A stretch of DNA of 64,000 bases from Arachis hypogaea (lineage: Eukaryota; Streptophyta; Magnoliopsida; Fabales; Fabaceae), in contig NC_092054.1 in assembly GCF_003086295.3 (NCBI RefSeq), positions 58,195,546-58,259,545 on the forward strand, read 5' to 3'. Of the stretch, positions 6,371 through 54,253 are shown in pieces. The notes beneath the pieces were generated by a model. It did no database searches and was not told the origin of the DNA. It saw only the letters and a list, made by a program, of their open reading frames with translations. Position 1 is the first letter of the stretch. Each line of letters begins with the position of its first letter. Both the position numbers and the translations under genes were made by a program.

Positions 6371-6407
6371 TTAGCATGAGGACATGCTAATGTTTAAGTA
6401 TGGGGAG
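6371..6407 (+). other. PPT-proximal stem-loop and polypurine tract of element E
   Basis: Stem TTAGCATG (6371-6378), loop AGGA, stem CATGCTAA (6383-6390). It is followed by TTAAGTATGGGGA (6394-6406), the likely plus-strand primer (PPT), and the LTR at 6410. Confidence 0.7.
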
Positions 6408-25770: not shown

Positions 25771-26265
25771 AGAAAGGGGCATTTTTGCATGCCACTTGGT
25801 GCAGGGATGAGATATCCTTGACACCTTAGGATCTATGGACCCCACAGGATCCCCACCTACCCCACCTCTCTCTCTCTTCTTCACCCATTCACCAATCACC
25901 TCAATACCTCTTCTCCAAAAAAACCCCTCACCTATCAAATCCCACCATTCTCTTCACCACTCACATCCATCCTTCATAAAACCCCACCTACCTCACCATT
26001 CAAATTCAAACCACTTTTCCACCCAAACCCACCCATAATGGCCGAACCATACCCCCCTCTCCACTCCTATATAAACCCATCTTCACTCCTTCATTTTTAC
26101 ACAACATACACACTATTTCTCCACCTTGGCCGAAACACTAAGCCCCCTCCATCTCCTCTATTTCTTCTTCTTCTACTCTCTTCTTTCTTCTTTTGCTCGA
26201 AGATGAGCAAACCTTCTAAGTTTGGTGTGGTAAAAGCGTTGCTTTTTGTTTTTCCATAACCATTT

Positions 26266-28336: not shown

Positions 28337-28374
28337 GTTGCTTGGGGACAAGCAACAATTTAAGTTTGGTGTTG
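28337..28374 (+). other. PPT-proximal stem-loop and polypurine tract of element C
   Basis: Stem GTTGCTTG (28337-28344), loop GGGA, stem CAAGCAAC (28349-28356), then TTTAAGTTTGGTGTTG directly before the LTR at 28375. Confidence 0.75.
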
Positions 28375-30004
28375 TGATGAGCGGATAATTTATACGCTTT
28401 TTGGCATTGTTTTTAGTATGTTTTTAGTATGTTTTAGTTAGTTTTTATTATGTTTTTATTAGTTTTTATTTAAAAATTACATTTCTGGACTTTACTATGA
28501 GTTTGTGTCTTTTTCTGTGATTTCAGGTATTTTCTGGCTAAAATTGAGGGACTTGAGCAAAAATTTGATTCAGAGGCTGAAAAATGACTGCAGATGTTGT
28601 TGGATTCTGAGCTCCCTACACTCGAAGTGGATTTTTTGGGGCTACAGAAGCCCAATTGGCACACTCTTAATTGCGTTGGAAAGTAGACATCCTGGGCTTT
28701 CCAGCAATATATAATAGTCCATACTTTGCCCAAGATTTGATGGCTCAAACTGGCGTTCCAAGTCAGGTTAAGAATTCTGGTGTCAAAACGCCAGAACTGG
28801 CACAAAAGCTGGAGTTAATTGCCCAAACTGGCACAAAAGCTAGCGTTTAACTCCAAGAAAAGTTTCTACATGTGAAAGCTTCAATGCTCAGCCCAAGCAC
28901 ACACCAAGTGGGCCCGGAAGAAGATTTCTGCATTAATTACTTATTTCTGTAAACCCTAGGCCACTAGTTCTCTATAAATAGGACCTTTTACTATTGTATT
29001 TTCATCTTGGTTCTTCCGGTTCCCTCTCTGGGGCTGAAGCCAATGAACACCATTATCACTTTTGTATTTTAAACGGTGGAGTTTCTACACACCATAGATT
29101 AAGGTGTGGAGCTCTGCTGTTCTTCAAGAATTAATGCAAAGTACTACTATTTTTCTATTCAATTCACACCTACTTCTTCTCTAAGATATTCATTCGCACT
29201 CAAGAACATGATGAATGTGATGATTATGTGACAGTCATCACCATTCTCACCTATGAACGCGTGCCTGACAACCACTTCCGTTCTACATGCAAACAAGCTT
29301 GAATGTGTATCTCTTGGGTTTCTAATCTAAGATTAGAACCTTCGTGGTATAGGCTAGAATTATTGGCAGCCATTCCTGAGATCCGGAACGTCTAAACCTT
29401 GTTTGTAGTATTCTGAGTAGGATCTGGGAAGGGATGACTGTGACGAGCTTCAAACTTGCGAGTGTTGGGCGTGTGACAGACGCCAAAAGGATCAATGGAT
29501 CCTATTCCAACATGATCGAGAACCGATAGATGATTAGCCGTGCGGTGACAGCGTGCGTAGAACATTTTCACTGAGAGGATGGGAAGTAGCCATTGACAAC
29601 GGTGATGCCCAACATAAAGCTTGCCATGGAAGGAAGTATGAATGATTGGATGAAAGCAATAGGAAAGCAGAAGTTTAGGGGGAACAAAGCATCTCCATAC
29701 GCTTATCTGAAATTCTCACCAATGAATTACATAAGTACCTCTATCTTATTTTATGTTTTATTCATATTTTAATTATCAATCCTCCATAACCATTTGAATC
29801 CGCCTGACTGAGATTTACAAGATGACCATAGCTTGCTTCAAGCCAACAGTCTCCGTGGGATCGACCTTTACTCGCGTAAGGTTTATTACTTGGACGACCC
29901 AGTGCACTTGCTGGTTAGTTGTGCGAAGTTGTGATAAAAAGTTGAGATTACAATTGTGCGTACCAAGCTATTGGTGCCATTGATGATCACAATTTCGTGA
30001 ACCA
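28375..30004 (+). repeat. 3' LTR of element C
   Basis: Begins TGATGAGCGGATAATTTA and ends TTTCGTGAACCA. It is colinear with 19930-21558 with scattered substitutions, so the insertion is older than that of D. Confidence 0.97.
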
Positions 30005-31563
30005 GAGCCACGAGGATATGATCAACCCTTTCAGCAACAACACCTTCCAAGATACCGTGGACAACGACCATCCTACAATGCATGCCAAGACAATAGTTAT
30101 GGTGGACCTTTTCGTGACAACCAACCTCCACCAGTTTACTACGGTCAAGAACCATTCCGAGGTGCATACCAAGATGATAGATATGATGGACCCCCTTGTA
30201 GTTACTAGCAAGCTCCATCATATGCCAATGAACCACCTCCTCAACATAGCTTTGAACCACCATACTCACAAGCCACCTACAACCATTCACCTCCATATGA
30301 TCCTAACCTTTATCCATCCCAATTCCAACCCAATTACTCCCAAGAACCACCACCTCCATATGCACCATGTCCATATCCATCAACCCAAGAATCACAGGAT
30401 AGCCTCAAGGAAACAGTGGATCAATTTCATGCAACCTTTCATCAACTGGAGCAAGCAATAAATCGATTACCTTCCCGATGTTCGGGCATTCAAGGAACTC
30501 CCATGGCTTCATGTGGAGAATCTGATGAAGAACATAGCATGAAGGAGACACTAGAAACTCTGGTGGATAGTAAGGAGCATGACTTTGTACTGGAACAAGT
30601 GGAGGAAGCCATAATTATCAAAGAAGAAGAAGTGGTTGAAGACTTAGGAGATGCGAAACGTCCATGGGAAAGCCCAGTCATAGAGCCCCATTCTAAGAAG
30701 TTTAAATTTGATGTTGAGGAGGGTGTACAACCTCCAAGGCATATCATGGTTGAAAACTTTGAAGGGGATGATCAAGAGATGGATTCAATCATTGATGAAT
30801 TCTTATCTACATTTGAATACTCTCCCATTGGACTTGACATGGAGATTAAAGAAGAAGCACAACCTCCCATGCCCTTGGTGAACAATGAAGAAGAGATCGA
30901 ATTGGAAGAAAGCTACCAAGAGGAAAATGTTGATATTAAAGAAGCTTGCAAAGAAGTGGAAGTTGTCAAAGAAGAACTCAAGGGAATGGAGCTGGAAATC
31001 ACCTTGCCAAAGCTATTGGAGACCTCTCCCCACACTTCAACACCATCCATTCCTTCATTCAAGTGGGTAAATCTTTCATCTCTAAGCTTAATAAGCCCAC
31101 TTGAATATGCTTTACTTGAGACGGATGGGCAACTTAGAGCTCTTTGTGGCTATAAGAGTAAGAGGGAGATGGTTAGTGGTTGGCAACACAATCCTAGGTT
31201 CATTGTGGTAGGAAGCTCACGGCTGAAGTATCATGGTTGGAAGAATACTAAATTGTATGGGTCTAGGAAGCTGTTTGGATGCCTCAGTGAGAATTTAAAT
31301 TGCTTACCACCCGGTTGGAACAAAGATGGTCAACAAAAAGACGGTGCAAAAGCAAGGTTTGGGACCCCGGAATTCATTCTCGCAATCAACACTCTTGGGG
31401 CCTTGTCACTTGCTTTAACTTGCTTGAATACAACTAGTTTGGGATACTGGAGGCCATTGGAATTACAAACATTGGTGGGGATTCTTTGATGAGTTCAAAC
31501 ACAAGCCTCCAAGACACGAAGCTCCCCAAACGTCCAACTTAAGGACTTTAACTAAAAGTGCTA

Positions 31564-31581
31564 GGTGGGAGACAACCCACC
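31564..31581 (+). other. Post-gag stem-loop of element A
   Basis: Stem GGTGGG, loop AGACAA, stem CCCACC, 75 nt after the ORF stop and preceded by AAAAGTGCTA. Confidence 0.65.
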
Positions 31582-31724
31582 ATGGTATGATCGTTCAGTT
31601 TCAGTCTTAGTTTTATTTTACTTTATTCAATTTTTATTTTTTTTGTTAATGACTCTTCTCATAATCTCTGCATATAGCTACATATAGCCTGCATTTGCAT
31701 TTGCATACTGCATAAAAAAAATGC

Positions 31725-32250
31725 ACACGACGTGCAAGCGTCGCTGACGCGTCCGCGTCATAGGTGCATTCGGAAGAAAAGAGAATTGAACAGAAAGTCA
31801 CACGAGAGCATGGCTGGAGGCATGCCTTAGGCACAAGCATGCCCACGCGAACGCGTCCCTGACGCATCCACGTCATTTGAAAAATAGCCTCTTACGCGAT
31901 CGCGTCACCCACGCGCACGCATGGCCCTACAAAATCGACGTAAAGAGATGTATGGCCGAGAGTTATGATGGAGTTGGGCTGGAATGGTGCTGGAAGCACC
32001 AGCTTTACCACGTGTCCGCGTCATTCTTCAAAAAGAGGCCATTCACGCGTGCGCGTCACCCACGCGCACGCGTCACCCACAATTTTTGGCAATATGCGTA
32101 CGAAACAGAAAGTTGTGCGTGTGCGAGGCTGCACTCGCGCCAATAGCACAAATCAGGTCACGCATCCGCGTCCATGACGCGTCCGCGTCACCTGAGAATA
32201 GCGCCAACCACGCGAACGCTTGCTCCACGCGTCTGCGTCGCATGCGCCGC
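31725..32250. repeat. CpG-rich array of ACGCGT-type palindromic units in element A
   Basis: Repeated units such as TGACGCGTCCGCGTCA, CACGCGCACGCGTCACCC and CACGCGAACGC lie in otherwise AT-rich DNA. Related patches occur in the LTRs of E, A, B and the fragment at 7807, and in the interior of B (50640-51110). Confidence 0.85.
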
Positions 32251-32866
32251 ACAGCCTATCCAAATCAGCGCCAGATATCTTATTTTTTCTTCTCCAATCC
32301 TACTTATCTTTCTATTATCATTCTTTCTTCTTTCTTCTATCTTTTCTTATTCTTTCTTCCTCCTTTCTTACTTTCTTTTTCTTCGGTTATTTCCCTTCTC
32401 ATTATTATTCTCTTTTATTCTATTTTTTCTATTGCATTTGCATACTTTCATTCATTGCATTTTAATTTTTTGCATATTTTATTTTCTTTTCTAAATTTAT
32501 TATTTTTCCGTTGGTGTTAAATTTCTTATTTAACTGTTGCATCTTCTCTTGAATTATCCTGGTTCTTCATGACTTGTTTTATTCTGATTGGGTATTATTA
32601 TTCATAAGTCAATGCTACTCTTCTATAATAATTGTATTCCTTTTGCATTGACACGAACTTATATTTTCTTGCATTACCCACACTCTCTTCCCCATTGTTG
32701 CAAATTTTTACACTCTTGAATTGCCACATGCTTCTACTATTTTCTCACTTGCATGTTGTAGCTACCATGTAATTGAGACCCTTATTATTTGGCACTAACA
32801 CCCATATTTTATTTGTTTTCTATCTTTGTTTCTGGGTTACTTTTCTTCTTTTCCTCTTCTTTCAGG

Positions 32867-32938
32867 ATGGCCACCGGAAAAGGAAAGGAAAAGAAACTTC
32901 TATATGGGGCGACAGACAAGTCCATCTGCACATCTTAG
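32867..32938 (+). pseudogene. 24-codon remnant of ORF2 in element A
   Basis: MATGKGKEKKLLYG.. starts after a polypyrimidine tract and CAG (TCTTCTTTCAG|GATGG) and stops at 32938. The place and first residues (M..GKGKEK) match the ORF2 start of B at 52842 (MTHKGKEK). The rest of ORF2 is deleted and the sequence passes directly into the conserved 3' module. Confidence 0.5.
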
Positions 32939-33280
32939 CATGCACCGAGGACAGTGCAATCTTTAAGTGTGGGGAGGTCGATACCGACTTCCAGGGGTTA
33001 GTTACCTTCTTTTCAACACCAATGTTTTATTTTCTTTGTTTGTTCATTGTTGCATTTGCATGTTTGATTGTATATTTGTTTTTGATTTCATATTTGTTTG
33101 ATTTTGTGCATATTTTACCACCACTTGGTTAAAGTAATATTTACTTTTTCAAGAAACTTTTTAGAGTATTTCACTAATTTAAATTAGAACTTTTTATTAA
33201 ACTTGTTTGAAGGAATATTATACTGGAACATGGTTTAGAGCTCGAACACACAAAACCTGTGAGATTTTTGAGCTTATTTG

Positions 33281-33304
33281 ATTGGTTGCATTCTATCAAC
33301 CAAT
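33281..33304 (+). other. Conserved stem-loop in the 3' module of element A
   Basis: Stem ATTGGTTG, loop CATTCTAT, stem CAACCAAT; perfect 8 bp. Counterparts are at 5209 (E) and 54618 (B). Confidence 0.65.
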
Positions 33305-34438
33305 ATTTTATTTTTGATGTGTGTTTTTCTCTCTAAAATTATGATATTTGTCTTGCTTAATTCTATATTTCCATTGTTTGATGTATGCATGCACTTATAT
33401 GATTGAGGCCTTTGTTTAACTGAGCTTACATACCCATATGACCTTACCTTTCATTATCCCTTGCAAACCAATTTTGAGGCTATTATACCCCTTTGTTCTT
33501 TACTTTAGCACATCATTAACTCTAAGCAGAAAACAATAATGTCCTTAATTTGAATTATTGGTTAGTTTAGACTAGTGAGAGTGCTTATGATTTAAGTGTG
33601 GAAAAAGTCGGTTTGGAAACGTTTGGTTTTGGAAATTGAGTATGTTAGAATTTTCTAAAAATGTGAAAGAAATGTTTAGGACATGTTCATGCATTCAATA
33701 ATTTAATCATATGCATTGAGAAAAAAATAAAAAAATAAAAAAAATATAGATATAGATAAAAATAAAAAAAAAGGAAAAAGAAAAAGAGAAGGAGAAAAAG
33801 AAAAGAAAAAGAGCAAATAATAAAAGGGGACAAAATACCCCAAAGTAAATGGTGAAAGCAATACATATGTACTGTACTCGAATCAGGATGCATGAATATG
33901 TGGAAAACATGGTTAATGGATAGTTAGATTTGTATTGTGATTACATGGATTATCTTAAGTTAGGTGGGAAAAGTTTAAGTTAATTAAGGATTCAGATTTT
34001 AGTCTACTTGGCCAAATACAATCCTACATTGACCCTAACCCTATTACAACCCTTAAAAGACCTCTTGATATGTGTATTTGCGCATCAAACTTGTGTTGAT
34101 TGGTAGAAGAAGAGCAAGCCTTAGAAAGCAAGATTAGTAGTGAATTGAGAGAGTCGAACCTTAAACACTTGAGTGATTAGAGTGTATACACTTACGGTGA
34201 GGGTTTGATGCTCGATTCTTTGTTCCCGGCTTTCATGAGCTATCTTCTTCTTGCAAGTCTATTTATACTTCATTTTTATGATTTGAATTAGTGAAATCAA
34301 GTTTATGTTTGTCTTGAAGAGCTTATTTACTTTTAACCAAGTAGGTAGAAACATCTTAGCATGTAGTTGCATTCATATAGATAAGTTGCATTTCATACAT
34401 TCTACCATTCCTCTTCACTCTTATAGCTTCTCTTAAGC

Positions 34439-34474
34439 TTAGCATGAGGACATGCTAATGTTTAAGTGTGGGAA
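34439..34474 (+). other. PPT-proximal stem-loop and polypurine tract of element A
   Basis: Stem TTAGCATG (34439-34446), loop AGGA, stem CATGCTAA (34451-34458), then TTAAGTGTGGGAAGA and the LTR at 34478. Confidence 0.75.
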
Positions 34475-34477
34475 GAT

Positions 34478-35973
34478 TGATAAACCACTATTTTATGATT
34501 TATCTTATACTCAATTGAGTGGTTTATATCAATTCTTTACTCACTTATTCATACAATTTGCATGGTTCTACATTTTCCTTCCTGATTTTGTGCTATGATT
34601 GAAAACATGCTTCTTTGGCCTTATATTTGCTAATATTAATCCTCTCTTATTACCATTCGATGCCGTGATATGTGCGTCAAGTGATTTCAGAGATTACATG
34701 GCAGGAATGGCTTAGAGGATGGAAAGGAAGCATGCAAAAGTGGAAGGAATACAAGAAGTTGAAGAAATTGCTAAGCTGTCCAGCCTGGCCTCTTCGCACT
34801 GAAATGGTCATAACTTGAGCTACAGATGTCCAAATGAGGCGGTTTTAGTTGCGTTGGAAAGCTAACGTCTAGGGCTTCGAAATGATATATAATTCGTCAT
34901 AGTAGCCGTACAGCAATATGATGCGCACGTGTGAATCACGCGGACACGTTGTTCTGCAGAAAAACCAGCGTGGAAGATTTCGTCCTCAGCGATTTCTGGG
35001 CTGTTTCTGACCCAGATCTTGGCCCAGAAAACACAGATTAGATGCTATAAAGTGGGAGAATCCATCCATTCATTGAGGGAACATTCATATTCACAATTTT
35101 TAGGTTTTAGATGTAGTTTTAGAGAGAGAGGCTCTCTCCTCTCTCTTAGGATTTAGGAATTAGGATTTAGGTTTTTAGGATTAGGATTCCTCTCAGTTTA
35201 TGGTTATTTCTTAAATTCCAGGTTCAATGTTCCTTTAATTTATGTTCTCTTCTACTTTTATTTATTCTATTACTTTAGTTTGTTTATTTTCCCAAATTGG
35301 TTTATAGATTCCTATGTTTAATTTGATTCAATACAATTCGAGGTATTTCAGATTTAAGATTTCTTTATTTTATTTGTTACTGCTGCTTCCAATCTGAAGG
35401 CATTTTTATTCGAGTAGATTTTTTCCCTTTTGGCTTTGGTTGAGTAATTGTGACACTTGAGTTGTCAAACTCAGCAGTTGATTGAGAATTGGAAACTGCT
35501 GATTGATTTGGATCCCTCTAAAGCTAGTCTTTCCATAGGAGTTGACTAGGACTTGAGGAATCAAATTGATTAGTCCACTTGACTTTCTTTTATTTAGTAA
35601 GGGTTAACTAAGTGGGAGCAATAAACAATTCTCATCACACCTGATAAGGATAACTAGGATGGGATTTCCAGTTCTCATACCTTGCCAAGAGTTTTTCTAG
35701 TAATTAATTTACTTTATTGCTAATTTATTCTCCTTGTTCCCTATTTCAAAAACCCAAAATTCTACCTTTTCCATAACCAATAATAAATCATACTTCCCTG
35801 CAATTCCTTGAGAGACGACCCAAGGTTTAAATACTTCGGTTATAAATTTTATTAGGTTTTGTTACTTGTGACAACCAAATTTTTGCACGAAAGGATTCTT
35901 TGCTGGTTTAGAAACTATACTTACAATGCAATTATTTTTATAAAATTCTTTACTAGCAATAATCTAATCGTCA
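34478..35973 (+). repeat. 3' LTR of element A
   Basis: Begins TGATAAACCACTATTTTATG, ends AATCTAATCGTCA, followed by the TSD TGCCT. Confidence 0.97.
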
Positions 35974-35978
35974 TGCCT

Positions 35979-36044
35979 CTATCATTTTTCCTACGAAACA
36001 ACGGCTTCTGTGAATGAGATAGAAGTCTTGGCACTCCAATTTCC
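35979..36044 (-). pseudogene. Start of OHCU-like exon 1 (continues at 18172)
   Basis: Minus-strand exon after the acceptor CTACCAG. It reads KLECQDFYLIHRSRCFVGKM and then, across the TGCCT insertion site of A, IEASPFYSLDNA at 18172. TTL proteins have a comparable start (..CCGS..FA..M...SPF.SL). The frame is continuous when element A is removed together with one TSD copy, which supports both the exon and the insertion site. Confidence 0.6.
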
Positions 36045-36330
36045 CTGGTAGGCCACAGATATAGAAAGAGTGTACAAGGACAATAAAAAATGTGATTGTA
36101 AAAAGACTTGAAGGAGAAGTTACAGCATTGTGAAGAACCAATTAAATAAAAGAGCTTCATATGAGAGGATAAGTTTTAAAAAATATAAAGTAACTCTATC
36201 AATGTAATCTATTATCTAATGATATGACTAAACTATAATCCACTATCTATCATAGATGAATCATGATAGTAGGATATATGCAGAATCTCCCATGAATATG
36301 AGCTACATGCAAATGATGGAGGCGTCTATC

Positions 36331-37361
36331 TTAGGAATCGGTGGCCTTATCACAATCTTCAACGCCGTCATTAGTTGATTCCTCTAAATTGCCCTCTCTT
36401 GTCAACCGCAGGTCTTCGACATCAAATTCAGGCAAGCTTGTCATACAAGGCTGGGGATGAAGGTCGACCTCACAATGTTCATAATCCTCGCCCATGTCAA
36501 ACAAATCTCTTAGCTTCACATCGACTAATACACTCCATCCGGTTTCCACCTCATCCTACACGTAGAACACAAGACGCGCCTCAGATGCCAGGATGTACGG
36601 CTCATCGTCTTCTCGATCACCAGTGTGAATCGGAGTGGCAAAATTGACACAGGTGTGGCCCAAAACGTCTTGTTGGATGCCTCTTCCCGACGTGGTGTCT
36701 GCCGAAAGACACTTGAACAATACTACTGTGAATTGACCGCTGTAATTTAGCTCGATGATATCTACTAATCTCCCGTAATATGAGACACCACCAACAGCAA
36801 CATTGGCATCCCGTTTACTTGCATAACTTCTAGTATCTGAAGTGACATAAACACTGCTATTCTGTGTTTTCATCCCTTCCTCCCTCGACATGGTTCTAAA
36901 TTTAAATCCATTGATGTTGTAAGCCTGATTGCGTCTGGCCTGAGCAAGGGGACCGCAGGCAAGCCACTGCAACTCATTCGAATGATTGGTGCTTCCAAAT
37001 GGGACCTGGCATGGAACCATTAGAGGCAAGAAAGCATCAAAGGGTAGTAGGATCCTGAGATATTAAGGATTACCTCATGCCTGAACCAGTTGGGAAGTTC
37101 TCTGTGCACAACACCATCTATGTGAGACTGGGACCTTATTTTATTTCGCAGTTTTCTCTTCATGATGGCTCTGTACTCATTGTGCATCCAAAAAGTTTGT
37201 TCAAGTTCAATACTATCAATACCAAATTGGCTCACTGTATAATTATAGAACTCAGCCTCTATACTTACTCCAAGAATTTCTCTACAGCAATACAATTGAC
37301 CAGTACATGACGATGTGCTTGAAGCTTTTCGGTTGCTGTTAGAGTAAAAAATGAAGCTGCC
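36331..37361 (-). pseudogene. CACTA TNP2-type transposase, 3' part (DUF4218 end and DUF4216)
   Basis: From 37361 down: TLTATEKLQAHRHVLVNC (end of DUF4218), a probable intron start near 37260, HRELPNWFRHEV near 37085, then the DUF4216 region with GVSYYGRLVDIIELNYSGQF and VVLFKCLSADTTSG (36556-37029), and a C-terminal exon METGWSVLVDVKLRDLFDMG ending at 36331. These are the usual last domains of plant CACTA transposase proteins. Stops or frame shifts separate the pieces. The first codons continue from 57370 across element B. Confidence 0.8.
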
Positions 37362-38866
37362 TGATGAATCCACATTTCATGATATTTATTTGCTCTATTT
37401 GGGTGGATTTCATCAACTTTTCCTACACTTATTCCTTTAAATAGCATGCTTTTGTGTTTTCTCCCTTAATTGAGCTTAATTGTGAAAACATGCTATTTTG
37501 TACTTAATTTAATCAATTTTATTCCAGTTTCATTCCATAAGGTGCCTTGATGTGTTTGATGAGTAATTTCAGGTTTACAAGGCTAATATGGATGGAAGAG
37601 GTGATGGAAAAGCATGCAAAAAGGGAGAAAGCATGAAGAAATGAAATTTTGGAAGATTCAGCTTCTGTGCGTGCGCACAGTGATGCGTGCGTACGCACAC
37701 GCACACAAGTTTGGCAATGCGTATGCGTGACCCACGCGTACGCGTCGGTGCCAGCATGTGACTCACTTAATGGAAATTGCTAGGGGTGATTTCTGGGCCT
37801 CCAGAGCCCAGTTTTGGGACTCTCTGAAGCTGATTCTTCCTATATCAAGCAAGGCCTCATTCCATGTGAAGGGGGGCAATTAGGGTTAGCTTTTATTATG
37901 TTTTAGTGTAGTTCTCTAGAGAAAGAAGCTCCCCCTCTCTCTAGAATTAGGGCTCTTTAGTTTAATTTCTTGCAATTTCTACTTTTAATTCTTGTTTTCA
38001 TTTACTTTTCCTTGTCATTTATTGTTATTGCATCTTTGTTCTTCATTTCTCTTGCTATTTCCTTTATTTTGTCATTTTATGTTATGCACACTCTATGTTA
38101 ATTTTACTTTCATTTAATGAAATTTATGTTTCATGTCATTTATTGCTTTATTGTGTTGTTACCTTTACTTTCCTTGCTTGGTAGTTGTAGCATGTATTAT
38201 TTCTTGTCATTTTACCATGCTTTCTTTACATGCCCACCAAGTGTTTGACAAAATGCTTGGTTGGGTTTTTACTTAGTTTCTCACACTCTTGGTTGAAAAA
38301 TTGGGTGGTTGGGTGAACTTGAGTGGTGGATGTCCATTCCACATTGTGTGAGAGTTGTTAATTAATTTGGTTTCCACTAACACTAGTCTTTCACTAAGTT
38401 AATTAGTGAGTTGATTAGGACTCGTAGATTGAAATTAATTATGCCTAGTTGACTTATCCTCGATGTAGGGTTGACTAATTGGAATTAATCCATACACAAT
38501 TATCATGTTTGTGGTCTACAACTAGGATAGAGATCCTTAATTACCCACTTCATGCCAAGAGTCCTTTTTAGCCTTCAATTGCCATTTTCATTGCCTTTAC
38601 TTGCCTCCATTCAATTTCTTGCATGTTAAGTTACCTTCTTGCACTTTAATTTCTTCCCAATTGCCATCATCCAACTCCCATTCCCTTATAGCCAATAACA
38701 TGACACTCAGTTGCAACTCCTAGGGAAGAACTACCCGAGTTTGAATTACTCTTGATCTCGGTTACTTTAAATTGAATTGATATTTGATTATGAGAATTCA
38801 TTGTTGGTTTGGACTATGGTACTAACGAATTGATTGATTCCAACCATGCAAGAATTCTCATTGTCA
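37362..38866 (+). repeat. 5' LTR of element B
   Basis: Begins TGATGAATCCACATTTCATG, ends AATTCTCATTGTCA. CpG-rich patch GCGTGCGCAC..ACGCGTACGCGTCGG at 37670-37745. GAGAAAGAAGCTCCCCCTCTC near 37920 is the counterpart of the GA/CT inverted repeat of A. Confidence 0.9.
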
Positions 38867-38870
38867 AATT

Positions 38871-38888
38871 TGGCGCCGTTGTCGGGGA
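38871..38888 (+). other. Primer binding site of element B
   Basis: TGGCGCCGTTGTCGGGGA, four bases after the LTR; one mismatch to the complement of the plant tRNA-Asp 3' end. Confidence 0.9.
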
Positions 38889-39118
38889 CTTGCAATGGTG
38901 TTATTGTTGGCTATTGTATATATTGTGAATAGTGTGAATAGCTTAATTTTGGTTGGTCGTACATATGTTGCTTGCTTTTGGTTGATGTAAATATGTTAAT
39001 ATGTAAATATGTGAATATGTGAATAGCTTGTTTTGATTGATCGCTTGTTTTTGCTAGTTTTAGGAGTTCATTTTATTTGTTCTTATTACCTTTGATTTTC
39101 ACTTTCTTTTTATCCTAT

Positions 39119-39168
39119 GAATTCTCACCCATTGCATTGTGAGTTTTGTTGCTATTGTGTATAGGAAT
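39119..39168 (+). pseudogene. Gag-region start remnant of element B
   Basis: ATGAATTCTCACCC opens MNSHPLHCEF and stops after 16 codons. It aligns with the ACG-started ORF of A at 19820. Only about 130 bp later comes GTCCAACTTAAGGACATTAA, which in A follows the ORF stop, so most of the ORF is deleted. Confidence 0.55.
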
Positions 39169-39322
39169 TAGGAATTTCAATTGCTTGTTTCCTAGAAGGA
39201 ATGGAAGGAATTCACAATAAGATTAGGTGCACAAACTTGGAGATCTCAATTACCTTGAAGGATACAAGCTTGGGTGAGAGCTCTCCATAAGTCCAACTTA
39301 AGGACATTAAACCAAAGTGCTA

Positions 39323-39340
39323 GGTGGGAGACACCCCACC
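39323..39340 (+). other. Post-gag stem-loop of element B
   Basis: Stem GGTGGG, loop AGACAC, stem CCCACC, preceded by AAAGTGCTA and followed by ATGGTA as in A. Confidence 0.65.
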
Positions 39341-40029
39341 ATGGTAACATTGTTCTTATCCTTTCCTTGTTTATAGTTTTGGTTGATTGCATGTTTGCTT
39401 GTCTTGGTTAGCTTAGAAGTAGTTTAATTTTGAGCTTTGATAGTTTAATTTTGGTTTGGATCATGAAATTATACGTTCTTGCATGTTTTGATGATTGACC
39501 TAAGGCTTGTTGCCATAGATTTTAAAGAAAATTTTTTGAAAAACAGGGCATCTGTGCGTACGCACACAAGTATGCGTGCGCACACAACTGTGAGTTTCGC
39601 GACCTGTGTGAGCGCACAAGCCTGTGCACTCGCACACTTGATGACAAGTCATCTTAGCCTATTTTAACTAGTCTTTTTCTTTTGTTTTCATTAGAATTAT
39701 GCACTTTCTTGAACCATAAGCAAGCTAATTGAGTAGATTTTCATGTTTCCCTTTGATTGAATCAACCATGTATAAATTCATGCCATTTCATGAGGTTTTA
39801 TGCTAAAATTGTTGCATATTATGATAGAATGAATATCTCATGATTATGAGCATAGCTTTGATGAGTTGGTTGATTGATTATAGGTGAAGAAAGCTTGGAG
39901 AAAGGTTGAAGTAAGAAGGAATAGCTAGGAGTAAAGAGAAGACAATGGAATAAGTGAAATTGAACCAGGAAGCAAAAAGCTGGACCTAAAGTTAGCATCA
40001 AACTTTTGCACAAACTTTTGGTTGAAAAG

Positions 40030-40440
40030 TTAGCCCCAACGTTAGCCCCCTAACTTGGAGGCTAACGTTGGAACTTGAAAATCATTCCCTGGGTACCAAA
40101 AGTTTGCGCCAACGTTAGCCCCCTAACTTTGAGGTAACGTTGGCACATGAAATTTACCCCTGGGCACCAAAAGTTTGCGCCAACGTTAGCCCCCTAACTT
40201 TGAGGCTAACGTTGGCATGAAGAAATCCTCCCTGGGCATCAAAAGTTTGCGCCAACGTTAGCCCCCTAACTTTGAGGCTAACGTTGGCACATGAAAATCA
40301 CAAGGAGGAGCAAAAGTTTGCGCCAACGTTAGCCCCCTAACTTGGTGGCTAACGTTGGCGCCACAAGTACACAAGGCAAGGCCAACGTTAGGGTCAAAGT
40401 TAGACCCCTAACGTTGGCACCAACGTTCATATCAGCAAAT
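40030..40440. repeat. Array of five hairpin units in the D LTR
   Basis: Five units of about 72 bp, each with GCCAACGTTAGCC, CCCTAACTTTGA and GGCTAACGTTGGC, which fold as a 12-13-bp stem with a 12-nt loop, separated by AAAGTTTGCGCC-type spacers. The same array is at 49096-49500 in the 3' LTR. One unit in the 5' copy has lost a C (GAGGTAACG). Confidence 0.95.
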
Positions 40441-40653
40441 TTTGTGGGCTGCTATGAAAAGTTGGAGCAAAAGTTAGACCCTTAACTTTTGCTCCAACTT
40501 TTGGTCCAACTTTTGCAAAACTCCAACCCGGTTCAATTGGTTCACTTTGGTTCTTCTCCAAACTTCAAGAGTAATCAACCAAGGCCTCTTTCAACCCAAT
40601 TCCACCAAGAGCAAAGGCCCAACTCAAGGCTTGAAGATCATTTGAAGAAAGTG

Positions 40654-40668
40654 TATAAATAGGATAGA
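40654..40668 (+). promoter_or_regulatory. Probable LTR promoter TATA box (element D)
   Basis: TATAAATAGGATAG, present in both LTRs (here and near 49720), similar to the TATA block of element C. Confidence 0.6.
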
Positions 40669-41539
40669 ATTTAAGTTTTCGGAGAGCTTTCCTTTTGGAA
40701 TTTTCATAATAGTTTTCGGAGAGCTTTTGGATTGAGTGAACTTTAATTTCTTTGTCTTGGGGAAGGAGAATTCACTTCTCTTCCTCTCAGTTTTATTGCT
40801 TTCAATTTCAATTACAATTGTCTTGGATCTTGGGTTGGAGAATTGAAGAAATTCTGTTTCAATCTCATCCTTGGATCTCTCTGCTTTATTTACTGCAATT
40901 TAATTTCCATTTCTGTTACTTTCTTCTCATCTACTTTCCTTACAATTTACAATTCCCTTGCAATTGTTCTTGTTGGATCTAGGAAGGCATTGAGATCTAG
41001 ACTTGGTTTTCTAGTCTCTGGGTCCTGAGATCTGATTTCCCATTTCAATTCTCTGTTTATTGTTTTATATGTTCATTTACTCTTCTGTTTCGGATCCGAT
41101 TCAATCCCAATTCCCTTTTCCTCTTCTGTTTAATGCAATTCAACTTTTCCTTGTTTAAATTCTGCAAATCCAATCCCCAATTTCCTTTACAATTCCAGCC
41201 GTTTACATTTCTTGCACTTTAAGATTCCGCTATTTACATTTCTTGCATTCTAAGTTTTTGCTATTTAATTTCTTGTTCTTTAAGATTCAGCACTTTAATT
41301 CCCTGTTCTCTTTACTTCCATGCAATTTAATTTCTGCACATCACAAAACACTCAACCAAATATTGATTCGCTTGACTAAATTAACCACTAAGCTAAAATT
41401 GCTCAATCCTTCAATCCCTGTGGGATCGACCTCACTCCCATGAGTTTTTATTACTTGATGCGACCCGGTGCACTTGCCGGTTAGATTTGGGTGTTTTGGG
41501 AGAGATTCGTTTCTCCACCAAAATATCTCATCAAGTTTT

Positions 41540-41557
41540 TGGCGCCGTTGCCAGGGA
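41540..41557 (+). other. Primer binding site of element D (tRNA-Asp)
   Basis: TGGCGCCGTTGCCAGGGA, six bases after the LTR; one mismatch to the complement of the plant tRNA-Asp 3' end. Confidence 0.92.
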
Positions 41558-41703
41558 TTGATTAGATTGACAATGATTAAGTGAAGTGGTGATCTAGATC
41601 AAGCACTTTTTCTTTAATTTTGATTAACCCACTAACTGTTTGATTTTTTGCTTAAACTAACTAACACTTCAATCTCGCAGTAAATTGAAGTGTCACTGAT
41701 TTT

Positions 41704-44700
41704 GTGCATTTCTCATGCTCTGCTTGTATGTCAGGTACAAGAAGAGCCATACCCAATTTTCATGAACAAGACGAAAGAACTCTCAGGAGGTTAAGAAGAG
41801 CTGAAAGAGGGAAAAATATTGTTGGAGAAGAGGAATCAGACGAAGAATTCCAAGAGATGGAGGAACATTTAACCAATCCACCAGGTGGAGAAGACAACAA
41901 CAATGGCAACCCACCCCAGAGGAGAGTTTTGGCTTGCTATACCTTTGCAAATCCTAGACATTGTGGGAGCAGCATCTTGGCTCCAAATGTCAATGCTAAC
42001 AATTTTGAACTCAAGCCACAACTCATCACTTTGGTTCAGAACAATTGCTCTTTTGGTGGAGGACCACTTGAGGACCCACACCAACATTTATCCACTTTCT
42101 TGAGGATATGCAACACTGTCAAAACTAATGGAGTGCCCCCTGACAGTTACAAGCTGATGCTATTCCCATTTTCTCTCAGGGACAAGGCCACTCAATGGTT
42201 GGAATCTTTTCCAAGGGACAGCATCAACAACTGGGATGATTTGGTAACCAAGTTCCTTGCAAAATTTTATCCACCTCAGAGGATTATAAGGTTAAAGGCT
42301 GAGGTACAAACATTTACACAAATGGAGGCCGAACCCATCTATGAGGCATGGGAGAGGTACAAGGCTCTGATCAGGAAATGTCCCCCTGCCATGTTTAATG
42401 AGTGGGAGAAGCTTCAAAACTTCTACGAAGGCTTGACACTGAAATCCCAGGAAGCTTTGGATCATTCAGCTGGAGGTTCCTTGCAACTCATGAAAACTGC
42501 AGAAGAAGCTCAAGAACTCATTGATATGGTGTCCAACAACCAATATTTCTTTGCTCATCAAAGAGGCCGCCAACCATCACAAAGGAGAGGAGTAATGGAG
42601 CTAGAAGGAGTGGATTCAATCCTAGCTCAAAACAAGATGATGCAGCAGCAAATTCAACAACAATTTGAGCAAATGGCCAAGAGGATTGATAGTCTCCAAG
42701 TTGCAGCAGTTAACACTGGCCAACCATCAACCACATGGGGACAGAGTGAAGAAACTCAAGAAGAACAACAACAAGAGCAAGTACAGTATAAGCACAACCA
42801 AGGACTAAATGAAGTGTATGGTGATACATACAATCCATCCTGGAAGAACCACCCAAACCTCAGATGGGGAGATAACCATACCCAAAACCAACAACCATGG
42901 CAGAGGAACTCAAACCAACACAACCCAAGAAGCAACCAAAACCACAACCAGCAGCAGACTAGCCAAAACCCTTACAGAAAACCTCAAAATAACTACCCCA
43001 ACCTCAACCAGTACCAATCTAATAACCAACCCACCAACCAAAATGCCTACCATCCACCACCCACATCTCATAACCCACCTCAAGTATCACCTGAAGCCCA
43101 AAGAATCACTCACTTGGAGGCCATGATAGACAAAATGTTGAAACACCAAGAAATGGTAACCAAGAATCAGGAAGCTTCCCTGAAGAGCCTAGAGAGACAG
43201 ATGGGGCAACTCTCCAAGCAAGTATCTGTTGAGAGACCTTCAAACTCACTGCCCAGTGACACAATCCCAAATCCCAAGGAGGAATGCAAGGCAATACAAT
43301 TAAGGAGTGGGAGAACATTGATAAGCAACAATGACACTACAAGGAAGCAAGCAGAGAACATCAAAGAACCAACGGAGGATGAGAAGCAACCAAAGGCAGA
43401 TGAGGCCAAAGAGCAAGTTGTGATGCCAAACAAAAGCACTGAGAAACTTAAAGAAAAGGACAACCAGCCACATAGCTCAAAGGAAGTAGCTCAGGGACAG
43501 CAGCAAATAGGAAAGAGCATCACACCTCCACTGCCATATCCCCAGAGGTTCAACAAAGAGGTTAAGGACCAGCATTTTCACAAATTCCTTGAGATTTTTA
43601 AGAAGCTGGAAATCAATATTCCCTTGGCTGAAGCACTTGAGCAAATGCCTCTATATTCCAAGTTTCTGAAGGATCTTATCAACAAGAAAAGAAGTTGGCT
43701 TGAAAGGGAAACCGTATTACTCACCGAGGAATGCAGTGTTGTGATTCAACGGGGTATTCCACCGAAACTTAAGGATCCGGGAAGCTTTGTAGTCTCATGC
43801 ACTATTGGCAAGATAATTCTCAACAAGGCTCTCTGTGACCTGGGTGCCAGCATCAATTTAATGCCTCTCTCAATGATGAGAAAACTTGCCATAGAAGAGC
43901 TTAAACCCACCAGGATGTCACTAGTCATGGCTGACAGATCAATAAAGACACCCAATGGAATTGTGGAGAATCTGTTGGTGAAGGTTGGGGAGTTTATTTT
44001 CCCAGCAGATTTTGTAATTTTGGACACTGAAGAAGAAGGAAACGACTCAATCATTCTGGGAAGGCCATTTCTACACACAGCAAGGGCCATCATTGATGTA
44101 GAAAAAGGAGAAATGACCTTCAGGGTCCATAATGAACAAATGGTCATAAACGTGTTCAGATCAATGCAAAACGCTCCTGAGCAAGAGGATTACGTAAGAG
44201 TGGATATGATAGACAGTTTGGTGGAAGAAACATTGGAAGAAAATTTTCAAGAGAAAGAAGGAAATCAAGGGGCAACAGAGGAACAAGTGGCTGAGACCTC
44301 TACTGAGCAAGATGAAAGACAAGATAAGAAGGAAGATGTACGAAAACAAGAACTGAAACCTCTACCCACCCATCTCAAATATGCATTCCTTGGCACATCG
44401 GAGAGCTTCCCAGTAATCATTAATTCATCCCTGACAAAGAAGGAAGAAGGAGAACTTCTTGACGTACTCAAAGCTCACAAAGATGCTTTAGGATGGACTA
44501 TTGATGACCTGAAAGGAATCAGCCCTGCAGTATGTATGCATAAGATCCTCTTGGAAGATAATTCCAAACCAGTGGTTCAACTGCAAAGAAGGCTAAATCT
44601 CACAATGAAGGAAGTTGTCCAGAAGGAAGTAATAAAGTTGTGGAATGCAGGGATAATTTTCCCAATATCTGACAGCCCATGGGTAAGCCCGGTTCAAGTT

Positions 44701-47241
44701 GTACCAAAAAAGGGAGGAATGACGGTCATCACTAATGAGAAGAATGAGTTGATCCCTACTAGAACAGTGACCGGGTGGAGGATGTGCATAGACTATAGAA
44801 AATTGAATGATGCCACCAGGAGGGATCATTTCCCTCTCCCATTCATTGATCAGATGCTGGAAAGGTTAGCCGGCCATGCCTATTACTGCTTTTTGGACGG
44901 ATATTCTGGGTATAATCAAATCGTGGTGGATCCCAAGGACCAAGAGAAAACTGCCTTTACATGTCCATTTGGAGTTTTTGCATATCGGAGGATGCCCTTT
45001 GGGCTCTGCAACGCCCCTGCCACATTTTAAAGGTGTATGCTCTCCATTTTCTCTGATATGGTCGAAAAATTTTTAGAAGTCTTCATGGATGACTTCTCTG
45101 TTTTTGGTGATAATTTCAATGCTTGCCTAAACCATTTAACCCTTGTCTTGAAACGGTGCCAAGAAACTAATTTGGTTTTAAACTGGGAGAAATGCCATTT
45201 CATGGTACCCGAAGGGATTGTTCTTGGCCATAAAGTTTCAAAAAAGGGGATAGAGGTTGATAAGGCAAAGGTTGAGATCATAGAAAAACTCCCTCCACCA
45301 ATTAATGTGAAATCTGTTAGAAGTTTCTTGGGGCATGCCGGATTTTACAGAAGGTTTATCAAGGACTTTTCAAAAATAGCCAAACCTTTGAGTAATCTGT
45401 TAATGCTTGATAACCCTTTTATTTTTGATGAAAACTGCCAGCATGCCTTTGAAACTTTAAAAAATAGACTCACAACAGCACCAATCATCACACCTCCAGA
45501 TTGGGAATTACCTTTTGAACTCATGTGTGATGCAAGTGACCTTGCAATTGGTGCTGTACTTGGGCAAAAGAAGGGAAATTTGCATCATGTTATATATTAT
45601 GCAAGTAAAGTGTTGAATGAGGCCCAAAGAAATTACACCACAACAGAAAAAGAATTGCTAGCTGTAGTCTATGCATTTGATAAGTTTAGATCATATCTAA
45701 TAGGATCCAAAGTTGTGGTTTACACTGATCATGCTGCACTTAAGTATTTAATGTCAAAGCAGGATACTAAACCAAGACTCATCAGGTGGATACTGCTCCT
45801 ACAAGAATTTGACATAGAGATAAGAGATAGGAAGGGCACTGAAAATCAGGTCGCTGATCATCTGTCAAGGTTGCCACATGAAACAAGTCAAAAAGCATCT
45901 CAGCCCATAAATAAAAGCTTCCCAGATGAGTACCTTCTGCAGATCCAGCAAGCACCTTGGTTTGCTGACATAGCAAATTACAAAGTGGGAAGGAAGATAC
46001 CGCAAGAGTTCTCTAAGCAACAAGTGAAGAAGTTGATCAACGAAGCAAGGAAATTTTCATGGGATGAACCCTTCTTGTTCAAGAGATGCTCTGATGGAGT
46101 AATCAGAAGATGTGTTCCCGAAAGTGAAATCAGGGACATCTTATGGCATTGTCATGGTTCAGCTTATGGTGGACACTTTGGCCCAGAAAAAATAGCCGCA
46201 AAAATACCGCAGAGTGGCTTCTATTGGCCAACTATCTTCAAGGATGACAGAGAATATGTACACCAATGTAATGAATGCCAGAATGCAGGAGGATTAACAA
46301 AAAGGAATGAGATGCCTCAAAACTTTATCTTAGAATTAGAATTGTTCGATCTATGGGGAATTGATTTCATGGGGCCTTTTCCTCCTTCTTATTCTTTTAG
46401 ATACATCTTGGTAGCAGTGGAGTATGTCTCAAAGTGGGTGGAAGCCATAGCCACAACCACCTGTGATGCGCAGATTGTCCTCCAATTCCTAAAAAAACAC
46501 ATTTTCACTAGGTATGGAGTGCCAAAGGGTCTTATTAGTGATGGTGGTAGTCACTTTTGCAACAAACAAATGGAGAAACTCCTCCACAAGTATGGAGTAA
46601 TTCACAAAGTAGCCACACCTTACCATCCTCAGACTAACGGCCAAGCTGAACTTGCAAATAGAGAACTAAAGAAGATCCTAGAGAAAACAGTGGGAATCAC
46701 AAGAAAAGATTGGGCTAGAAAGCTAGAGGATGCATTGTGGGCGTATAGGACAGCTTTTAAAACTCCTATTGGCAAGTCACCCTTTCAGCTATTGTATGGC
46801 AAATCCTGTCACCTCCCTGTAGAGCTTGAACACAGAGCTTTTTGGGCCACTAAACTCCTCAACCTTGATCCCCAAGCTGCAGGAGAAAAAAGGTTGTTAC
46901 AACTAAATGAGTTGGATAAATTTAGACTAGAGGCTTATGAAAGTGCGAAGATATACAAGGAGAGAGCTAAGAAGTGGCATGACAAGAAGATCACAAAAAA
47001 GGAATTCAAGCCAGGACAGCAAGTGCTCCTGTATAATTCGAGGCTTAAAATCTTCCCTGGCAAACTGAAGTCTAAGTGGACTGGCCCATACTTGGTGACA
47101 AAGATTTTTCCCTATGGGAATATTGAACTGCTAGATGAGGCAACAAAGAATCGATTCACAGTAAATGGTCACAGAGCAAAGTTGTACTTGGGAGGACAAT
47201 GGGGTAAGGAAAAAGAGGTTCAACACCTACAGCCCTCTTAA
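41704..47241 (+). pseudogene. Gag-pol polyprotein of element D, complete but for one stop in the RT
   Basis: One reading frame of 1845 codons with a single stop TAA at 45028-45030, after ..LCNAPATF, where related RTs have Gln (a CAA-to-TAA change). The true start may be ATG 41728 (MSGTRRAIPN). Gag: about residues 100-290 (FELKPQLITLVQ, FLAKFYPPQRIIRL, YEAWERYKALIRKC), then a Gln/Asn-rich linker without a visible CCHC knuckle. Protease: ALCDLGASINLMPLS near residue 710. RT: YRKLNDATRRDHFPLPFIDQ, FLDGYSGYNQI, then FMDDFSVFG after the stop. RNase[34 protein letters not shown]. Integrase: zinc-binding [20 protein letters not shown] and the catalytic Glu in QAELANRE; C-terminal [11 protein letters not shown]. 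No chromodomain. Readthrough or mobilisation by a sister copy would be needed. Confidence 0.95.
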
Positions 47242-47285
47242 AAAGAATTGAAAGATGTCAAGCTAGTGACAATAAAAGAGCGCTA

Positions 47286-47303
47286 GTTGGGAGGCAACCC
47301 AAC
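47286..47303 (+). other. Post-pol stem-loop of element D
   Basis: Stem GTTGGG (47286-47291), loop AGGCAA, stem CCCAAC (47298-47303), 44 nt after the polyprotein stop and preceded by AGAGCGCTA. Confidence 0.7.
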
Positions 47304-48703
47304 CTGAGGTAGTTTTCTTTTCATAACTTTTTCAATAAAAGTGTTGGATAACTGCTATGTATTGCAAGAAGCTAAGTTTGGTGTTGCACACCAAAAACAA
47401 TCGAAGGGAGAATGCAAGATGCCTAAGTTTGGTGTTCCACCAAAACTACATTCTAACTTCCTGCACATTGCTAGTTCCAAGCAATCAAACAGATTATTCA
47501 AACAACTTAACTGTTTTTGTTTAGTCTCATTTTCATAACCTTTAGCAAGGACACACAAGTTTGCCCAGAGTTAACCTGTTGAATCAGAAGAAGTAGCAGG
47601 AAATCAAGTCTGGGAGTTAACTACCAATTGAAGATACTATGCATCAAGACTCAAAAATGGGCACAGCAGAAAGAAGAACAAAAGAAATGCAAACCAATAG
47701 GTTGTATCTATACTTAACTTTTGCTGTTGAGAAATACTTTTGATTGATATCTTGTTAAAGTGTTCATTTAGTTCAAACAGATTCAAATTTCTTTTAAAAT
47801 AAGTAGGCTAGTTTATGTGTGTGCTTGTGTGTTTACTTTCACTTGACAAGAAGCATGTTTTGTCCCCTGCATCTTTAAGTTCAATAAAAGAAAAAGTTTG
47901 AATGTGAAGCAAGATAGTCTCTGTTAGATAGAAGTAGAATAAAAGTAAGTGGTGGTATGTGTGTGATTGTATAATAGCTCACTTTTAGTGAATAAAGAGC
48001 CAGGATATCTCCTTCTAAGTAAAGAGTGGCCTACTGTCTATGAATCTCAATTAAATAAAAAAAAATTCCTTGGTTAGAAAGAAAAAAAAAAAGAAGGAAA
48101 GACAAAAAAAAAAGATAGCCAAAAAGTGGCAGAACAAAAGGAAACAAAAAGAAACAAAGCTGGACACCAATAGCTTGAACTTTAAAATATATGCCTGTGA
48201 TGTCTTTGTACTAGGATCTGCTTGGATTAGTAAGCTCTTAGGAGTGCCTCAACACTCGGTGACTTGGGTTAACTAATCCGGGATCATCAGCTGAAAGTCC
48301 ACTATCAAGAGCAACCTAACTACAAGGCATTTAGTAACCCAAAGAGGTGCTGGGCATCAATGTTTTAAGAAGGAATGTGAGCCAAGTGTCTATGGTGAAT
48401 AATGTGTCAAGTATAAAGAAAAGAAAATGAACTTGCTACACATGACACTCAAATAAAGCTTATGAACAAAGTAATAGCCAAGGATAAAGGAATAATGAGA
48501 GGTCATAGCAGTATGTCACTTGAAGCTTGAAGGAGATTTTCTAGGCCTAGGAGTCAATAAGAAGTGAGTATTTGCATATCCATACAAAATCCCATGAACT
48601 ATCAATAATACTCTGCTAGCATGAACATCCTCTTCCATCTCATTCTTTCTTCTCAATAAATCTTTTCTTGCTTGGGGACAAGCAAGCTTTAAGTTTGGTG
48701 CTG
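47304..48703 (+). other. Non-coding 3' region of element D
   Basis: About 1.4 kb without ORF. It contains CTAAGTTTGGTGTT at 47373 and 47424, an A-rich stretch near 48058-48150, and a hairpin with polypurine tract at 48667-48703 (stem CTTGCTTG, loop GGGA, stem CAAGCAAG, then TTTAAGTTTGGTGCTG). No sign of an env-like gene. Confidence 0.8.
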
Positions 48704-50599: not shown

Positions 50600-50639
50600 A
50601 CACTCTTTGTATTGCCCTCTGCTCGCAGCACCAGCACAG

Positions 50640-52084: not shown

Positions 52085-52260
52085 CATGGATGAGTCACCA
52101 TACGTAACAAGGAAGGCGGGAGGACAAGCATGCAGCAACCGATTGAGCCACTGGCTGAAGGTGGCGATCCGAAGTCACTTCGCCCCCTAGCTCACCTTTG
52201 AGTGCACGGAGGACCATGCAAACTTTTAAGTGTGGGGAGGTCATCGCTGATCGAAGTCAC
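52085..52260 (+). pseudogene. First ORF2-type remnant and TTAAGTGTGGGGA motif in element B
   Basis: A short frame MDESPYVTRKAGGQACSNRL opens at 52087 and is followed by GCACGGAGGACCATGCAAAC and TTAAGTGTGGGGAGGTC (52226), as in A at 32940-32977. A second ORF2 with its own tail follows at 52842, so B holds two such modules in tandem. Confidence 0.45.
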
Positions 52261-54059: not shown

Positions 54060-54253
54060 CGTTGATTATTTTGAGCACTAAGGACGATGCATGATTTAAG
54101 TGTGGCGGAGGATCTACGATATTTTGGGTGTAAACATTCTCTCCCGAACACTCTTATTTAGTTTATTTTGAGTCTTTGTTATGCATTTTGTAGATATTTA
54201 CAGCACTTTACTTTTTGCTACTGTTTAGTATTGTTGGTAGACATATATATATG

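Follow-up and report, generated by a model that had tools for sequence, protein, structure and literature searches.

A covarying RGGA-loop hairpin at polypurine tract motifs of long terminal repeat retrotransposons in the peanut genome

What a short stem-loop is doing in front of every 3' long terminal repeat (LTR) is the question raised by a stretch of 64,000 nucleotides of Arachis hypogaea (NCBI RefSeq assembly GCF_003086295.3, contig NC_092054.1, positions 58,195,546 to 58,259,545 of the forward strand; hereafter the window). The window is filled with nested LTR retrotransposons, here named A to E and delimited by BLAST of the window against itself, and an initial annotation of its letters had described, ahead of each of the five visible 3' LTRs, a stem with an RGGA loop at the presumed site of plus-strand priming. 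Excerpts of a review (PMC3185511) state that the molecular details of how RNase H chooses the plus-strand primer are largely unknown and that polypurine tracts (PPTs) have no common consensus. Here we find the hairpin both at the 3' primer sites and at internal copies of them, which suggests that it helps to mark where DNA copying begins.

All five stem-loops described ahead of the 3' LTRs were recovered letter for letter (Table 1), and the distance from the end of the stem to the LTR does fall at 17-21 nt in each of them (18 in C, 17 in D, 19 in both A and E, and 21 in B). The window holds no other perfect stem of at least 7 bp with a 4-nt RGGA loop: there are five on the plus strand and none on the minus strand, against a mean of 0.03 in 30 dinucleotide shuffles of the plus strand only; likewise, the stem core followed by TTTAAG matched five times in the window and never in 100 shuffles. 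Target-site duplications of 5 bp read from the letters (GAGCC, TGCCT and ACACT, respectively) fix the start of the LTR at 28375 in C, 34478 in A and 48704 in D; for E and B, of which 3' LTRs are present and 5' LTRs were not located, the start is based on LTR similarity. From loop to TTTAAG there are 10 nt in C, A, E and B, as well as in L016 and L018, two relatives from outside this genome discussed below, and 9 nt in D. The spacing to the tract is kept, as had been claimed, but the tract itself is not all purine (TTTAAGTKTGGK.. in most) and is better called PPT-like. By eye, many modules are preceded by a pyrimidine-rich tract.

Further sites were sought in the window with a script for RGGAC, 7-11 nt and TTTAAG, and with a covariance model built from 12 hand-picked stem types. 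The ten best matches of the model were the five 3' modules and five internal ones, all on the plus strand; the next match reached 14.3 bits, and all 15 listed matches lie on the plus strand, which is that of the elements. Each of the five internal modules precedes a copy of the PPT-like motif (TTTAAG and a G-run) within its element. Those of C, B and E score lower, at 20-25 bits with E-values of 0.0006 to 0.007; two of the five (B and E) are diverged or decayed, and the loop of C in the window is AAGA. Elements A and C each carry two hairpins with unrelated stems in the same arrangement (CATG and CACCG types in A, CTTG and CTCG types in C), and D has the 3' module only. What the sites have in common is the pairing, the loop, the spacing and the PPT motif, and not the stem letters, the LTR or the gene that follows. 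The hairpin is therefore present at all five 3' LTRs without being specific to them; because it also accompanies the PPT motif inside the elements, it is tied to the PPT and not to the LTR, and its assignment to the plus-strand priming site is supported and at the same time sharpened.

The internal copies also bring in another explanation, namely that the hairpin is an RNA-level expression structure acting in splicing, ribosome entry or 3' processing, for example for an env-like frame behind the internal module. In fact, the internal module of C lies about 40 nt upstream of the first ATG of a frame matching Transposase_32, a domain that adjoins the internal PPT-like site of this element; a match to the same family below the Pfam cut-off (53049-53384) is found downstream of the module at 52201 and near the internal site of B, and the pyrimidine-rich tracts ahead of many modules would suit such a role. 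The 3' modules, however, have nothing but an LTR behind them, and the frames around the internal module of A gave no Pfam match, which makes an expression structure improbable.

The window modules belong to families of considerable size. Genome counts were made over the 2.56-Gb assembly (440 contigs), and exact forms of the module number in the thousands to tens of thousands in this one crop-plant genome. The exact C-type junction, 26 bases of PPT and LTR start (window 28359-28384) searched without any of the stem, has 36,136 copies, and an A-type junction has 1,460. The C-type family is very abundant, yet at least one member, the window copy without reverse transcriptase (RT), RNase H or integrase, is non-autonomous. 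Conservation was assessed in the places listed first in each search (contigs 1 and 2), a non-random sample that was chosen without reference to the stem; the best of the spacings 8-12 was scored, all copies were counted and no loop was required. Among 30 C-type copies, 28 had 7 of 7 Watson-Crick pairs, one had 6 and one, L042, had 3 owing to a deletion, and among 50 A-type copies 39 had 7 pairs, ten had 6 and one had 5; the loop was GGGA or AGGA in 29 of the 30 and 48 of the 50, respectively. The possibility that most family members lack the stem, which would have spoken against the annotation, is thus at odds with these samples. In the first 30 copies of each type, the mean frequency of the majority letter was 0.93 in the A-type stem, 0.75 in the 20 nt next to it and 0.65 over 38 nt, the corresponding values for the C-type being 0.96, 0.91 and 0.86; the stem is better kept than its flank, clearly in A-type and slightly in C-type copies. 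In L042, a C-family copy, an LTR-end-like sequence abuts the right arm of its 3' hairpin, apparently through deletion of the internal region.

Internal modules were counted as well. The pattern GRGGACB, 8 nt, TTTAAGTNNGGG has 6,325 sites in the genome and none in the reversed control; it fixes loop and spacing, so that its spacing is no evidence. Forty-three such sites, including three from the window, were examined, and 26 had 7 standard pairs, 14 had 6 and 3 had fewer; the first 20 of 40 fetched had been picked for variety, and the site at 52201 was anchored one base late. An internal module lies inside the 1,500-nt flank of 11 of 30 A-type copies. For the C-type, 12 copies were sampled in 201-nt segments, one module being complete and the others cut off or outside, and 8 of the 12 were followed up: the internal module with an AGGA loop was found in 7 of these 8 (L195 among them with a C.A mismatch), 10-11 nt from TTTAAG, and for two of the four remaining copies (L181 and L189) the exact stem is present in the vicinity, but not at the same distance from the LTR. 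The canonical TTTAAGTTTGGGGG, in contrast, is not enriched, with 37 genome matches against 143 in the reversed control, and among 30 of its loci five had an A/B-type stem, intact or decayed, and two had another type; it is therefore a poor probe in the peanut genome.

Compensated base pairs between families, on which the initial annotation had relied, proved to be real. Stem types were picked by hand from 69 distinct sequences and later copies so as to span families. With 12 types, 94% of the cells were paired (59% in shuffles) with a covariation score of 0.848 (0.204 in shuffles). With 16 types paired cells rose to 94.6% (58% in shuffles) and the score to 0.881, against 0.212 in shuffles (standard deviation 0.049; reached by 0 of 500) and at most 0.203 when the partners were slid. 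Both-sided changes occur at 6 of the 7 pairs among the 16 types, and the loop-closing G-C pair never changes on both sides. In a panel of 130 of the 137 sites, which leaves aside L042, D and the 54072 site as well as four sites lacking GGA at the set place, each of the pairs 2-6 from the loop is found in two to four Watson-Crick types. Double changes between families, and some inside them, are exemplified by C against D, by L114, and by L190 against L196. For a single pair of the internal C-type stem, exact genome copies number 10,788 for C-G and 8,322 for U-A, with 533 for U.G and 463 for C.A and no match in the reversed controls; these patterns comprise the stem and flanking bases without the PPT, and the followed-up copies alone were seen in context. 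Both the C-G and the U-A forms were amplified, and the U.G and C.A intermediates look like decay. Accordingly, the selected structure proposed by the annotation is strongly supported by covariation at 6 of 7 pairs, by conservation of the stem over its flank and by retention of the stem in samples drawn without regard to it.

These sites share a composite module made up of a 7-8 bp hairpin with an RGGA loop, a gap of about 10 nt between loop and TTTAAG, and a G-rich PPT, and we hypothesize that it acts in cis to mark the PPT at the 3' LTR and also internal copies resembling a central PPT. That this selected hairpin serves plus-strand priming is to our mind an evenly balanced proposition, in which the mode of action, be it as RNA or as single-stranded DNA, is an inference. 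The hairpin would act while the plus-strand RNA primer is being formed, and two routes may be envisaged. In the first, the RT making the minus strand would copy U3 and the PPT and then reach the base of the hairpin 17-21 nt past the PPT/U3 junction, where, if it paused, its trailing RNase H would stay close to the junction and the cut that frees the 3' end of the primer would be favored. In the second, the loop would be recognized by RT or Gag, which would thereby be positioned beside the PPT. Element C, in which tblastn found none of RT, RNase H and integrase, keeps its hairpin, as expected for a cis signal. More tentatively, and with more doubt than belief on our part, the hairpin might encode a portable plus-strand origin throughout a large clade of plant retrotransposons: more than the purines of the PPT would be needed for its recognition, an RGGA-loop hairpin at near-fixed distance would license it through RT pausing or binding, and the module would be reused within an element for internal and 3' starts. 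Dimerization by loop-loop contact, which had also been suggested, is unlikely, RGGA not being self-complementary.

Gag could also be the partner of the hairpin for a different purpose. Short-stem G-rich tetraloops resemble the targets of retroviral nucleocapsid proteins, and a purine loop seen by Gag or nucleocapsid could serve packaging or entry into retrosomes, its place beside the PPT being historical. A CCHC knuckle motif is found in the gag-pol frame of the relative L016, the hairpin is retained in non-autonomous C copies, and the presence of two modules in one element could serve multivalent binding. Nevertheless, packaging needs neither a near-fixed spacing to TTTAAG nor repetition together with an internal PPT motif, and no CCHC motif was detected in the first frame of D (the second was not scanned), though the LTRs of this element are 99.4% alike, or in the three forward frames of C between 23138 and 26265. 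We regard packaging as an unlikely function, if one that merits consideration.

Several points weigh against a priming function and the covariation behind it. Among the 16 stem types the number of changed pairs (6 against 5.2 in shuffles) was reached by 180 of 500 shuffles and that of pair types (13 against 11.5) by 136, the corresponding figures for the 12-type set being 107 and 46 of 500; the strength of the covariation resides in pairing and score and not in the number of changed pairs or pair types. Within the A-type family both-sided changes are found in 2 of 343 cells, one of them pairing (0.16 expected if independent), so that covariation is mostly between families, and the copies descend from few ancestors, for which reason their counts are not independent events. 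The Ty3 RT has its active sites about 13 bp apart by preliminary studies (excerpts of PMC5371799), a distance that does not match 17-21 nt unless the enzyme stops before reaching the stem or the RT of the present lineage is different. For the internal PPT-like copies, priming is a possibility raised by the motif. Pairing between the pyrimidine tract and the PPT did not exceed what base composition would give, with mean z values of -0.28, -0.19 and -0.08 in sets of 31, 53 and 43. U.G is barely commoner than C.A, which leaves RNA and single-stranded DNA undistinguished.

Two rival explanations draw on some of these points. The dyad might be read in double-stranded DNA by a dimeric protein, or be extruded as a cruciform, instead of forming a single-strand hairpin, and the near equality of U.G and C.A, by which wobble gives no hint of RNA, would be in keeping with this. 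A dyad-binding protein would however be expected to conserve the arms, and here the arm letters vary widely while an asymmetric RGGA is kept on the plus strand; we consider a DNA dyad quite improbable. Shared ancestry alone, that is, an old palindrome duplicated along with the 3' end and now without function, would account for copies that are related and in part visibly decayed (the 54072 site, L059 and L063) and for the few double changes within the A-type family. It is very hard to reconcile with double changes between families and in some cases within them, and with a stem better kept than its flank, and we give it hardly any credit.

Two structural candidates besides the hairpin were rejected. 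An outer hairpin of pyrimidine tract and PPT, which would hide the PPT, had been suggested by single folds, and shuffled tract letters paired about equally; in small sets z was -0.07 (n=5), -0.61 (n=2), +1.66 (D) and -2.66 (n=2, the sole differing set). Single folds of 70-nt regions ranged from z +0.02 to -3.75, not all remarkable, and that of L016 lacked the stem. Homology of the stem to the primer binding site (GTTGC..GGGA) was likewise discarded, the likeness being seen by inspection in C and D alone.

Returning to the priming function, inverted repeats at PPTs are already known from Sireviruses, and the variant with an RGGA hairpin appears to be new within the literature searched. In Sireviruses, which belong to Ty1/copia, an inverted repeat lies at the junction of PPT and 3' LTR (Bousios et al. 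2010, PMC2829016), and the excerpts of that paper propose that it aids primer formation by RNase H. The precise placement of an inverted repeat at the terminal PPT is shared with the present elements, which are of the Ty3/gypsy superfamily. In the Sirevirus repeat, however, the arms average 28 bp and enclose the PPT in the loop, the left one bordering it and the right one being inside the LTR, whereas here, in every one of the five 3' modules, the two arms lie 5' of the PPT and form a stem of 7-8 bp with an RGGA loop and largely free letters. Moreover, upstream PPT copies of Sireviruses are described in the same excerpts as without the repeat, while here internal copies carry the hairpin. An extra internal PPT in the linker of env-containing Ty3/gypsy elements is cited there for Athila4 and Calypso, which resemble our elements in having a second PPT-like tract, and the excerpts mention no hairpin at theirs. 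A U-box or T-box directly upstream of the PPT affects plus-strand priming in several retroviruses and Ty1 (cited in excerpts of PMC10085805) and is, as here, a cis element just 5' of the PPT; it is described as a single-strand sequence touching the PPT, whereas here a covarying hairpin stands between the PPT and the tract judged pyrimidine-rich by eye. In the genomic RNA of Ty3, of the same superfamily, the PPT is in a base-paired region and paired with lower probability, and the excerpts of PMC11381356 mention no RGGA hairpin at a fixed distance. The literature searched, which lacked most subscription papers including the original one on Athila4 and Calypso, yielded no description of an RGGA hairpin, and the printed stem letters matched only papers with unrelated titles. 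A covarying hairpin of near-fixed spacing that is repeated with an internal PPT motif offers a directly testable cis-determinant of priming, as well as a structural tag for locating the 3' ends of elements and possible internal priming sites.

Material from outside this genome consists of contigs in bacterial assemblies (L016, L017 and L018), which we take for plant contamination because of their pol. L016 and L018 (L017 being 99.6% like L016) encode pol relatives of 59-61% identity and carry, 10 nt ahead of TTTAAGTTGGGGGG, stems of the form CATTG-AGGA-CAATG (6 bp in L016); since both are among the 12 stems of the model, their covariance scores are not independent. The near-identical L016 and L017 occur in assemblies of two genera, Solirubrobacter sp. 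CPCC 204708 and Geminicoccus harenae CPCC 101083, probably as plant contamination. Protein scans of viral contigs found no relatives, and pattern matches in them (15 and 5) were dismissed as chance after inspection of the 15 and a search of all 20 with the covariance model, the best score being 15.9 bits against 20 to 50 for the window modules.

As for the elements themselves, the coding region of D consists of two separate open frames, and its gene order (gag, RT, RNase H, then integrase) is that of Ty3/gypsy, as expected of an Athila/Calypso-type element. Its second-frame protein finds its highest identities in Arachis, at 93% over 41% of the query and 81% over 57%, and protein relatives of D occur in many plants. 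Element C has gag, a protease match below the Pfam cut-off and Transposase_32, and tblastn found no RT, RNase H or integrase in it; A, B and E gave no match to the gag or pol pieces of D. Behind the 5' LTR lies the primer binding site TGGCGCCGTTGCC, which we take to be of the tRNA-Asp type, exact in D, one base off in C and diverged in A.

Table 1. Elements, coding regions and hairpin modules of the window (window positions; stems given as left arm / loop / right arm)
Feature	Position	Strand	Details
Element C 3' module	28337..28356	+	GTTGCTTG / GGGA / CAAGCAAC; 41.5 bits
Element C PPT-like tract	28359..28374	+	TTTAAGTTTGGTGTTG; abuts LTR TGATGAG at 28375
Element D 3' module	48667..48686	+	CTTGCTTG / GGGA / CAAGCAAG; 38.2 bits
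Element D PPT-like tract	48688..48703	+	before LTR at 48704
Element A 3' module	34439..34458	+	TTAGCATG / AGGA / CATGCTAA; 49.5 bits
Element A PPT-like tract	34461..34477	+	TTTAAGTGTGGGAAGAT; before LTR at 34478
Element E 3' module	6371..6390	+	TTAGCATG / AGGA / CATGCTAA; 49.3 bits
Element B 3' module	55768..55785	+	TAGCATG / AGGA / CATGCTA; 42.9 bits
Element A internal module	32939..32973	+	TGCACCG / AGGA / CAGTGCA, one mismatch, then TTTAAGTGTGGGGAGG; 44.1 bits; 1.5 kb before 3' LTR
Element C internal module	26191..26226	+	TTTGCTCG / AAGA / TGAGCAAA, then TTCTAAGTTTGGTGTGG; 20.4 bits, E-value 0.007
Internal module at 52201	52201..52236	+	TGCACGG / AGGA / CCATGCA, one mismatch, then TTTTAAGTGTGGGGAGG; 34.7 bits
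Element B internal module	54072..54106	+	AGGA loop kept, stem decayed, TTTAAGTGTGGCGGAGG; 21.8 bits, E-value 0.004; 1.7 kb before LTR
Element E internal module	4625..4660	+	AGCATCG / AGGA / TGATGCT, then ATATAAGTGTGGGGAGG; 25.3 bits, E-value 0.0006; 1.75 kb before LTR
Element C LTRs	19930-21558 and 28375-30004		95.6% identity; inserted in element A
Element A LTRs	starting 18172 and 34478		94.3% identity
Element D LTRs	39639-41534 and 48704-50600		99.4% identity
Element D coding region	41704..47241	+	two separate open frames
Element D frame 1	41704-45030	+	gag and first part of RT
Element D frame 2	45037-47241	+	remainder of RT, RNase H, integrase
Element C open frame	26266..27411	+	Transposase_32 (PF20167); downstream of C internal module

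A third C-like LTR at 13762-15409, about 80-82% like the others and possibly a 5' or solo LTR, is not preceded by a hairpin or PPT. Both LTRs of D contain tandem repeats of about 72 bp (40025-40489 and 49090-49555), and just behind the 3' LTR of this element, at 50744-50777 and 50826-50857, stand two hairpins with long perfect stems of 15 and 14 bp and a GCCC loop. A Transposase_21 (tnp2) frame on the minus strand at 58344-59039 is the remnant of a DNA transposon. The curated models of Rfam gave no match reaching the gathering score at any of the hairpin modules, and their two matches elsewhere in the window were to snoR71 (RF00097), barely over threshold, at 1217-1320 (plus strand) and 23621-23728 (minus strand). 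Both are antisense to retrotransposon gag regions; retroelement sequence might have entered this Rfam family, or gag might be the origin of the snoRNA.

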